A stretch of 64,000 bases of DNA from Flavobacteriia bacterium (GCA_947450325.1 CANFUT010000013.1:1-64000), one strand, 5' to 3'; shown: positions 15,938 through 24,966, numbered from the stretch's first letter. The notes: generated by a model from the sequence alone, not told the origin. Translations and numbers: made by a program.

Positions 15938-15945
15938 TAAATTTG
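15938..15945 (+). promoter_or_regulatory. Promoter of the exopolysaccharide-secretion operon
   Basis: TAAATTTG is an exact TAnnTTTG box in the 175-base gap before the TolC-like gene. The predicted transcription start near 15950 leaves only a short leader before the first codons of the signal peptide. No TTG at the -33 spacing was seen. Confidence 0.55.
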
Positions 15946-15998
15946 CAGACATTTAAAATTACAACGTTATCAAAAATTTTAAAATTTACTTATTACTG

Positions 15999-18056
15999 AT
16001 GTTGCTAGGTCAAGCTAACTTATCGTTTGCGCAACCTCAAAATGAGCAGAAAGTAGCTGCCACTATTAAGACGCTTCAAAAAATATTTGAAAACGAAGAA
16101 GCTAAGTTAAGCGAAGAAAAACCAATTTCCAGAGATTCTTCAGTAATTACTTTTTTAAGCAGATTATCAATTCAACACAAAGACTCTTCTTATAGTTATG
16201 ATAATTATTATGAAGCATATGAGAAGTTGTTAAGAAAGCAAACTGGACTTGCAGTTAATATTGATGCACTTCAAAATTTCAATCAATCTCAATCTGATGT
16301 TGAAGAAGGAATTCTTTATCAAAGAAGAGCGCAAGCAGGAATTGAATGGAATATCTTGAACGGCGGTTATTTTGATACTAGGGCTCAACTTAAAACGCTT
16401 CCAGCTGAAAGAAATTATTTCAACAATCTTGCAAGCAATGAATCCAAAGACGATTTTGGAATCAAAATGAACGAATGCATCTATTGGTTCAATGAGCACA
16501 AAAAAAGTTTATTAGTTGAAAGAGAGAGAATATTAAATCGTCAAATTAAATATTTGGAGGACTTATACTTTGCGAAAAAGATTGACAAAGAACAATTGTT
16601 GCGTTCTCAAACAAGAATTGCAGAAATCAATGGAATGAAAGGGATTTTTAATTCTTACAATCAACACATTGATTCTAAATTTGACAGTACGCTTTTGGCG
16701 GCAGAAGTTCCTTTGTTTGATTTGAATTATGATTATTTCTTTGGGATTTTAAACACACAAGAATTGGCTGATTCAATGCGTTTATTTTTGGAGGAAAATT
16801 TAACGAGACAAAATGCTTGGTACAATGAGATTAAACTTAGAACTTATGCAAGATATAATATTTATGATCTGTTAACAACAAATCCCTCTTACAGAAGATT
16901 TTTCAGTGTAGGTGTTTCTGTTGGAATTCCAATTCCATTTACAAACAAAGAACAAGCTGCTGTAAATAAATATAAAACGCAAAAACAGCTTTATACTTTA
17001 GATACTGATTTAAAAAATCAAAGAATTGAATTGTTGAATTTGGCTTATGAATTCAGATATCAATTGAAACAATACATTATTTTTCATCAAAAAAGAATTT
17101 TGGCTAATGAAGCAATCAGAAGAGAGCGCGTTAAAGCGAAAATGTTAGATGCTGATTTTAATCCTCTACATGGATTGGAATTGATTGATAATCTATTGCA
17201 GATTGACATTGAGTTGTTAGACTTAAAACAAAATTTGTACATCAAATTATTGAGAATTCATTCTAAACAAAACAACTTACCACTTGATTCTATGATAGTT
17301 CAACTAGATCTTCCAAATTATTTTGATTTCGAAGACGAAACAGAAAGAGGAGTTTATGTTTGGAGCAAAATTTTCGAAACTCAAAACCCATCATTTATTC
17401 AAGAATACATAGTATATAACCAGTTTGATGAAGCTTATATCGCCGTATCTGAAAATGACAAACAAATCTCTGCTAAAACAGCATTAGTGAAATCATTAAA
17501 CAAAAGCGAAATAGATGTTTATCCGATGGTTGGTCAAAACAAGTTATTAGATTCTGATGATTTTAAAGGAGACTTACAGAATTTATTAAAACCATTTAAC
17601 GGTTGGAAAATTGCTGGAATTCATTTGGATATTGAACCACACGTTAGAGCTGATTGGAAATCGAACAAGGCTGAATTAATGAGTAAATATTCAGAAATTA
17701 TTGATCAAGCCAAGATAATATGTGATTCTAAAAGTTGGAAATTATCGATTGATATTCCAATAAATATGGACACTAATTATGTAAATTCGATGTTTTCAAA
17801 AGTGGATATGATTCGCTTTATGTGCTACGAAAATGTGAAACTTGAATATTTAGTCAGAAAATTAAGCGCTTACAAAGAGCACAATAATAAAATAATGATT
17901 GCTTTAAGAACGGAAGATTTTAAAACAAGAGATGAAATGGAACTTTTTGCGAAAGCTTTATACAAAGAAACAGGAATCAAATGTTTTGGTTTTCATGATT
18001 TGTATAGATTGATTGAGATGGACAAAAAAACAATGACGGAAAATGAAAAACATTAA
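15999..18056 (+). CDS. TolC-like outer-membrane channel fused to a C-terminal glycosidase-like TIM-barrel domain
   Basis: Residues about 20-420 are long helices with the pattern of outer membrane efflux (TolC) proteins (IEWNILNGGYFDTRAQLK; RRFFSVGVSVGIPIPFTNKEQ; long coiled regions). From about residue 435 to 675 the sequence changes to an alternating strand/helix domain beginning GVYVWSKIFE and including AGIHLDIEPH, with Asp544 and Glu546 resembling the DxE of GH18-like barrels, and MIRFMCYEN. The ATG at 15999 gives an abnormally short signal sequence. The frame is open upstream to 15957 and encodes IKNFKIYLLL just ahead of it, so translation probably starts at an unusual codon near 15969. 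It overlaps the next gene by 14 bases. I infer an exporter that also trims glycan in the periplasm. Confidence 0.72.
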   Translation: MLLGQANLSFAQPQNEQKVAATIKTLQKIFENEEAKLSEEKPISRDSSVITFLSRLSIQHKDSSYSYDNYYEAYEKLLRKQTGLAVNIDALQNFNQSQSDVEEGILYQRRAQAGIEWNILNGGYFDTRAQLKTLPAERNYFNNLASNESKDDFGIKMNECIYWFNEHKKSLLVERERILNRQIKYLEDLYFAKKIDKEQLLRSQTRIAEINGMKGIFNSYNQHIDSKFDSTLLAAEVPLFDLNYDYFFGILNTQELADSMRLFLEENLTRQNAWYNEIKLRTYARYNIYDLLTTNPSYRRFFSVGVSVGIPIPFTNKEQAAVNKYKTQKQLYTLDTDLKNQRIELLNLAYEFRYQLKQYIIFHQKRILANEAIRRERVKAKMLDADFNPLHGLELIDNLLQIDIELLDLKQNLYIKLLRIHSKQNNLPLDSMIVQLDLPNYFDFEDETERGVYVWSKIFETQNPSFIQEYIVYNQFDEAYIAVSENDKQISAKTALVKSLNKSEIDVYPMVGQNKLLDSDDFKGDLQNLLKPFNGWKIAGIHLDIEPHVRADWKSNKAELMSKYSEIIDQAKIICDSKSWKLSIDIPINMDTNYVNSMFSKVDMIRFMCYENVKLEYLVRKLSAYKEHNNKIMIALRTEDFKTRDEMELFAKALYKETGIKCFGFHDLYRLIEMDKKTMTENEKH

Positions 18057-24900: not shown

Positions 24901-24914
24901 TAGTTAGTAAATAA
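21903..24914 (+). CDS. CotH-kinase-family surface protein with lamin-tail domains and T9SS type A sorting domain
   Basis: The signal peptide is MNIYITLLLTFFISVNSFSQ. A first lamin-tail (LTD) domain spans about residues 22-155 (KINEVLFKQNG). A chitobiase-C-like segment (YTLNGSEVKSTSPTAPS) precedes a CotH domain at about 290-680, with TRIHGNGSRHSAHKSLRLYSR, LNGEFWGINDLRSRLDAEYF and YIFDVDAAFGG (Asp547 and Asp549 fit the metal-binding DxD). A second LTD is at about 780-915 (PMINEVLINNEYNWPDE) and a T9SS sorting domain (FTVYPNPNDGTI) closes the protein. CotH proteins are atypical kinases or nucleotide-dependent modifiers. It follows the GT2 gene by 37 bases. I infer a surface protein that modifies or holds the exported polymer. 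Confidence 0.85.
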   Translation: MNIYITLLLTFFISVNSFSQLKINEVLFKQNGVYYDFESDCASIVELINISTSSVNASNYFLSDVETNILKWQLPNISIAPNAKLIVFLSGKGLYTPENHTNFRIGAGDNLILSTSTTIVDEISTLNQYLNYSYSRFPDGTGAFVYSIPTLNATNSNGVSVFPSQPGVNLVPGVYPVNSVISFNSSPLTVRYTLNGSEVKSTSPTAPSAIVLTNPNLRPNNFSEIPTNPEDNAPIGQYSQARADNRGWVEPYGNVSKAFILRTKSFSTNGIESEEKAYTYFTSLPTYNLPIISIITDSIGYFDNETGIYVYGNDPNGNYVNLGRKYERPAIVQFFDSLGVFEKEITLGTRIHGNGSRHSAHKSLRLYSRFDYDTTKFELPNGDNLDVAILRNEGHSPFCIGRDYLSNQFVSDMDMDHAKAFLYAVYLNGEFWGINDLRSRLDAEYFSDRYGIKDDGVAVSDFTYGIIDGQLDNPNELDEITIFAENNDLTIQSNFDYITEKVDVNLLMDLFCSEIFLGNADFPRTNIGFWKYKDAKAESKWRHYIFDVDAAFGGSCDTVYKSFNALDYYLQETTADFKKANRLLRKMLMNPSFKALFINRMADLMNTEFKAEVLQPKFTEYKNDIQDIRVDHVNRWRYPSTSSTLANRQTEVPSLNKWNLLHTGFGTYFSDRQRNVRNHFNAKFTIADSVRITLNVNNVNQGLIKINELYISKAVSGVNDLVPFPWTGQYFASIPFPVTAISKRGYKFDSWSNVPSNTYSATINTTSDLNISANFIADPNFIEPMINEVLINNEYNWPDEFGQFEDWIEIYNKNNYPITIEEYFLTDDITLPTKYRLKPKNASVIPANGYQLFFASDERNRGAAHTNFKLSANETLFLFAPDSTTIIDEIDLPALDVDFSYGSSPNGSTNRVVFDSPTPLNNNDLSSILELEKIKKTFTVYPNPNDGTIVYTSISNDYNVYNMQGSLILKATNTNQLPIAGLQSGTYLVVNKEGSTQLLVVSK

Positions 24915-24934
24915 ATTAATCCAAATAGAATTTT

Positions 24935-24966
24935 AAATCCGGCTTATTTAAGTCGGATTTTTTTGT
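24935..24966 (+). terminator. Rho-independent terminator after the CotH-like gene
   Basis: AAATCCGGCTTA pairs with TAAGTCGGATTT (one G-T pair) around a 2-base tip and is followed by TTTTTTG. It ends the 15938-24914 operon and lies just upstream of the ABC-F promoter. Confidence 0.85.

Follow-up and report, generated by a model that had tools for sequence, protein, structure and literature searches.

A probable Bacteroidota branch of the Mxd exopolysaccharide machinery in a Flavobacteriia bacterium

A five-gene locus with parts for polysaccharide synthesis and export

We analyzed a 64,000-nucleotide stretch of DNA from a Flavobacteriia bacterium (GCA_947450325.1, CANFUT010000013.1:1-64000; hereafter the window), taken from a genome of 3.4 Mb in 42 contigs, and focused on five consecutive genes on its + strand, between positions 15,938 and 24,966. 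An earlier note, made from the sequence alone, had described these genes as a possible undescribed exopolysaccharide synthesis-and-export system with a surface CotH-like modifier. All five open reading frames (ORFs) were recovered on the same strand, with the overlaps of 14, 1 and 1 bases that the note had reported at three junctions and a gap of 37 bases between the stop of the fourth gene and the start of the fifth, and its domain calls (TolC-like, HlyD-like, zinc ribbon with degenerate GGDEF, GT2, and CotH with type IX secretion system (T9SS) export) all held. We consider it quite probable that the operon is a Bacteroidota version of the exopolysaccharide machinery known as Mxd in Shewanella, working along the lines proposed in the last section.

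The first gene (15999..18056), assigned from its ORF, Pfam and Foldseek matches and an AlphaFold model, encodes a TolC-like channel (approximately residues 67-423) that is fused, in the predicted model, to a C-terminal TIM barrel (approximately residues 446-681). The OEP/TolC match in Pfam is weak (E 4e-4, 20.7 bits against a cut-off of 22), and a PDB sequence search with a profile of the protein gave zero matches, so that only fold comparison gave a result, with Foldseek pairing the model to TolC and SilC at E 7e-11. The model was computed from a 20-sequence alignment, three rows from plasmid records staying out of the input, and reached a mean predicted local distance difference test score (pLDDT) of 81 and a predicted template modelling score (pTM) of 0.51. 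The best structural neighbours of the barrel were GH18-type proteins and the hydrolase domains of PgaB and BpsB (Z 17.7-19.9), giving substance to the “glycosidase-like domain” of the earlier note; that neighbour list is dominated by the TIM barrel, and the assignment of the channel part rests on the Foldseek list. Like GH18 and PgaB hydrolases, the predicted barrel has an acidic DxE motif on strand 4, and it contains the motifs GIHLDIEPH (at 540) and MCYEN (at 608), the former of which we take to resemble the GH18 D-x-E signature. D544 and E546 are invariant across 12 orthologs, as are their equivalents in 10 Pseudomonas/Halomonas-type proteins, and the barrel would presumably be an active hydrolase. 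When translated from the ATG at 15999, this ORF has a clipped signal peptide, which an in-frame upstream stretch beginning with VIKNFKIYLLLM would complete (15950-16002); since that stretch contains no ATG, GTG or TTG, a rare start codon such as ATC is possible.

The second gene (18043..19143) encodes a HlyD-like periplasmic adaptor that matches HlyD_3 (E 5e-7) and, by profile comparison, the MxdC family (HHalign probability 98.7, E 3e-16, 274 columns). It is followed by a gene for an MxdA homolog (19143..20561; Pfam, and BLASTP to MxdA with 22% identity and E 7e-34), in which an N-terminal pseudo-receiver that lacks the usual aspartate precedes the TackOD1 zinc ribbons (PF18551, E 1e-48) and a degenerate GGDEF domain below threshold (E 0.014). 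The fourth gene (20561..21865) encodes a GT2 membrane polysaccharide synthase (GT2 match E 2e-27) homologous to MxdB (BLASTP, 31% identity, E 4e-46), with conserved DDGS, DAD, LDGD and QRLRW motifs, the last being the QxxRW motif of processive enzymes. Its best NCBIfam model was that of PgaC/IcaA (E 3e-47, far below the cut-off of the model), and the cellulose synthase model gave a weak partial match of 18 out of 699 bits. The fifth gene (21903..24914), which we regard as an optional member, encodes a CotH-like protein (CotH domain E 2e-23, 84 bits against a cut-off of 23.8) with lamin-tail domains and a C-terminal T9SS sorting domain above its own cut-off.

The transcription signals proposed to bracket these genes fared unequally. 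A sigma-70 scan stayed at chance level (48 matches found, 46.8 expected), leaving in place of the claimed promoter a putative Bacteroidetes-type -7 motif, TAAATTTG at 15938..15945 (+), matched by eye. The claimed terminator is present as a terminator-like hairpin followed by a T run (24935..24960, +). A closely similar hairpin lies 5’ of the ABC-F gene in a congener that has no such operon, and the hairpin therefore appears to be part of the flank and not of the operon alone.

Relation to Mxd and to other polysaccharide systems

In Shewanella oneidensis, MxdA is a c-di-GMP (cyclic di-GMP)-binding effector contacted by CheY3, and mxd mutants form no structured biofilm (PMC7666153, PMC3691769). 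TackOD1 was described, as a domain of unknown function, from response regulators of archaea and from some bacteria (PMC5847659). We located the S. oneidensis mxd operon (mxdABCD, mxdA being SO4180) with published mxd promoter primers (PMC3691769), one of which, 21 bases long, had an exact match in just one of 97 genomes, a Shewanella genome in which every one of the five primer cores appears, in order, directly 5’ of the operon. The genes there run MxdA, GT2 (MxdB) and HlyD-like (MxdC), with MxdA itself combining TackOD1 (E 5e-71) and a degenerate GGDEF domain. The two loci thus share a regulator of this architecture, a GT2 and a HlyD-like adaptor as neighbours on one strand; they differ in gene order (TolC-HlyD-regulator-GT2 in the window, regulator-GT2-HlyD in Shewanella) and in that a T9SS-type CotH and a TolC-like channel with a fused GH18/PgaB-like domain occur only in the window. 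Based on the matches of three proteins to MxdA, MxdB and the MxdC family and on the MxdA architecture of the regulator, we placed the operon in the Mxd family, a membership that sequence homology and synteny support well; the system is accordingly not undescribed, as had been suggested, and what it adds to the known Mxd core is the TolC-like gene and CotH.

Regulator, GT2 and adaptor were neighbours in 77 of the 79 named proteobacterial loci, the remaining two ending at a contig edge. In 21 of the 79, from Pseudomonas, Stutzerimonas and Vreelandella, a gene for a TolC-plus-hydrolase protein of about 620-760 aa separates GT2 from adaptor; the hydrolase domain alone is encoded in three Pseudomonas loci, that of P. 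putida among them. Right after the adaptor gene, this P. putida locus (L142) also has a gene for a GalE-like NAD-dependent epimerase (13698-14648). Plasmid records contributed further loci in Plesiomonas, Phyllobacterium, Photobacterium and Aeromonas. In one Shewanella indica locus (L103), the MxdA homolog (6701-8137) is broken by an in-frame stop, possibly a pseudogene or a sequencing error.

Other characterized systems share some of these parts. The poly-N-acetylglucosamine (Pga) system resembles the operon in its PgaC/IcaA-like GT2 and in the C-terminal domain of PgaB, which the window barrel matches in fold; the window exit parts are of HlyD/TolC type, and neither the PgaA TPR-porin nor the PgaB deacetylase domain was found among the five proteins and their close flanks. 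The Pel system has a degenerate-GGDEF regulator (PelD) and a hydrolase domain, and the alginate system a GT2 with the HlyD-like Alg44, all features with counterparts here; a GT4-type synthase, a PilZ domain or a TPR/porin-type exit protein was not seen among the operon genes. The earlier note had also held that a HlyD/TolC path for a GT2 polymer matches no known system. Such a tripartite path of GT2 synthase, HlyD-like adaptor and TolC-like channel has already been proposed, and not yet validated, for cyanobacterial cellulose (XcsA-XcsB-TolC of Thermosynechococcus vulcanus), as described in PMC12430437, citing Maeda 2018. XcsA differs in carrying a PilZ domain, which had zero matches in the whole window genome, and in T. 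vulcanus the genes are scattered, unlike the single operon of the window, whose synthase is closer to PgaC/NodC than to cellulose synthase.

Distribution in the Bacteroidota and the place of CotH

To follow the operon beyond the window we relied on genome searches, on which all statements about whole genomes rest. Of 59 relatives, 13 had TackOD1 above its cut-off, as did 10 of 296 genomes across the phylum (the window genome counted in both), and a GT2 like that of the window (E below 1e-60) occurred in exactly the same 13 relatives. This patchy presence with perfect agreement is strong evidence that the two genes belong together and puts the gene set far beyond chance; as the relatives share descent, no simple probability is attached to it. 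In all 22 other Bacteroidota loci examined, the genes for TolC-like channel, HlyD, regulator and GT2 were close together on the same strand (a contig end truncates one gene in two of these loci). Thus, of the proposed five-gene set, the four core genes stand as a co-occurring unit, a GT2 synthase with HlyD/TolC-type exit parts and a regulator; CotH is present at just 4 of 23 loci and is optional.

Four loci (L052-L055) have other genes between HlyD and regulator, among them one for a TviB-like UDP-GlcNAc 6-dehydrogenase (L052, L053) or a similar protein (L054, L055); three of these (L053-L055) also encode at this position a protein of about 650 aa with a lipoprotein-like N-terminus. Their TolC-like gene is short (423-429 aa in L053-L055), too small for both domains, and together with the hydrolase-only Pseudomonas loci this suggests that channel and hydrolase are separable modules of one system. 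Two cluster copies can lie within about 15 kb in a single genome, as seen on one Aliivibrio fischeri contig (L079, L084) and in one further genome (G259; L052, L060).

A congener of the window organism (G001) provides an empty site, in which the interval between the GT9 and ABC-F genes measures only about 130 bases and all five genes are absent with both flanks intact. We had considered GT9 as a sixth member, given its position upstream of the cluster in 9 of 12 order-level loci; it was counted as a flank because it has matches in 12/12 genomes with or without the cluster and is retained at the empty site. The HGSNAT-like, GEVED, ABC-F and transglutaminase genes were likewise rejected as members, all of them surrounding the empty site without the cluster. 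Farther downstream, the window holds a large same-strand cluster (42712-62631) with an ABC-2 transporter, an ABC ATPase, a DegT aminotransferase, several glycosyltransferases, acyltransferases and an asparagine synthase, which resembles a locus for an O-antigen or surface polysaccharide exported by an ABC transporter.

Whether CotH belongs to the system or is an incidental neighbour bears on none of the other four genes, and the latter is a serious, if somewhat less than even, possibility. Three of the four loci with CotH come from one genus, the window genome encodes seven CotH-domain proteins (six besides that of the operon), and the 37-base gap after GT2 leaves room for a promoter of its own. 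Yet in G001 CotH is missing together with the other four genes as a single block, and the cluster-linked CotH of another family (L031) matches that of the window with 588 bits, compared with 247 bits or fewer for CotH proteins that are not linked to a cluster. Based on the empty site and this match, we take CotH to be an optional accessory moving together with the unit.

Another alternative is that the operon is a separate, undescribed synthase-dependent system that resembles Mxd just superficially, in keeping with its different gene order, with pairwise identities to Mxd proteins of just 22-31%, and with a Shewanella operon that has no TolC, hydrolase or CotH. We consider this unlikely, as the regulator has the full MxdA architecture, with zinc-ribbon cysteines common to the whole family, the trio is adjacent in 77 of 79 proteobacterial loci, and Pseudomonas and Vreelandella provide intermediates with a TolC-hydrolase gene. 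Since HlyD and TolC families serve mostly type I secretion and efflux, and since the adaptor profile finds its best PDB matches in membrane fusion proteins of just these kinds, these two proteins could also form a protein or small-molecule exporter that is co-transcribed by chance with a glycolipid-type GT2. This reading appears very improbable: no ABC, RND or MFS inner-membrane pump is found among the operon genes, the downstream ABC gene is of the soluble ABC-F type (two ATPase domains, no Pfam membrane domain) and stays in the operon-less congener, HlyD and GT2 remain linked across phyla, and the QxxRW motif of processive enzymes is present in the GT2.

Several observations weigh against assigning the operon to Mxd, or against the functions we propose for it. 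No counterpart of MxdD, a conserved hypothetical protein, was identified in the window, with no reference MxdD sequence fixed in the S. oneidensis locus (L150), and the adaptor and MxdC are barely alike pairwise (BLASTP E 0.004), being linked by profile alone. The mxd loci of S. oneidensis, Vibrio and Aeromonas lack an adjoining TolC-hydrolase gene; our guess is that these operons use a general TolC. The hydrolase assignment derives from the predicted model, with the scores given above, and from short motifs, and the TolC-hydrolases of Bacteroidota and Pseudomonas match weakly by profile (probability 40, E 3e-4), sharing domain order, length and the strand-4 motif. We found no biochemical data on any Bacteroidota member and, in the open literature, no characterization of the Mxd polymer. 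Nor did the open literature yield a relevant paper on a Bacteroidota Mxd system, on TackOD1 in exopolysaccharide systems or on CotH with polysaccharide export, subscription papers being mostly uncovered.

A proposed mechanism and its regulation

Combined, these results allow us to chart a model for the operon as a Bacteroidota form of Mxd. The MxdB-like GT2 would make a polysaccharide, presumably an exopolysaccharide, on the cytoplasmic side and push the chain across the inner membrane, where the MxdC-like adaptor would connect the synthase to the dedicated TolC-like channel that takes the chain out of the cell. The GH18/PgaB-like domain at the C-terminus of the channel, expected to be periplasmic, would trim or clear the chain. 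The MxdA-like cytoplasmic protein would turn the synthase on and off, its input probably being something other than c-di-GMP. In this genus, inheritance of the T9SS-exported CotH-like protein appears to follow that of the unit, and either the polymer or proteins of the cell surface may be its target. With respect to the product, we hypothesize a HexNAc (N-acetylhexosamine)-containing polymer, possibly HexNAc-uronic, which is favoured by the PgaC-like synthase, the PgaB/GH18-type fold of the hydrolase and the TviB-like dehydrogenase genes in related loci.

The regulator belongs to a family in which the canonical GGDEF active site is kept in none of 104 aligned members. An I-site-like RxxD motif, present in the window protein as RSSD (397-400), is found in 78 of 81 proteobacterial regulators as against 15 of 23 from Bacteroidota. 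The genomic surroundings differ further, for S. oneidensis has 54 GGDEF matches in its genome, while a search of 16 Bacteroidota genomes with the cluster found GGDEF in MxdA-like proteins alone and a search of 18 genomes gave no PilZ match, the window genome being included in both sets; EAL was absent from the 8 genomes searched, that of the window among them, and HD-GYP was not searched for. Most simply, this phylum would have replaced c-di-GMP control, keeping RxxD partly by descent or for structure. Five Bacteroidota regulators (L056, L057, L058, L060 and L061) have an N-terminal receiver domain with the usual aspartate (in L056 also by NCBIfam), and this intact-looking domain is the basis for considering a phosphorelay. 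The same five loci have, 5’ of the regulator gene, an ORF of about 110 aa that matches the regulator’s own N-terminal pseudo-receiver part. In four genomes of the family (L023, L026, L028, L032), a convergent gene beside GT2 encodes a membrane protein like a sensor histidine kinase (EIHHRVKNNLQ), a possible signal input.

Taken to its full extent, the proposal would be that the Bacteroidota branch is a c-di-GMP-independent Mxd, in which the regulator has been re-wired to a different input, for example a phosphorelay or a ligand of another kind, a hydrolase-bearing TolC duct lets the polymer out and, in this genus, a T9SS-delivered CotH kinase-like enzyme modifies the polymer outside the cell. 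We offer this combination tentatively, as somewhat less likely than not.

Mxd is needed for Shewanella biofilms, and we found neither its exit route nor its polymer described in the open literature. The gene neighbourhoods analyzed here offer a TolC-like channel bearing its own hydrolase domain as a new and concrete candidate for the exit, along with clues about the sugar. They also reveal a Bacteroidota branch that carries CotH, and MxdA-like regulators in genomes without other GGDEF proteins, without PilZ and, where searched, without EAL. The retention of a c-di-GMP-effector-type regulator in genomes of this kind makes it testable what TackOD1 and a dead GGDEF domain sense, in an Mxd family that is widespread far outside Shewanella.

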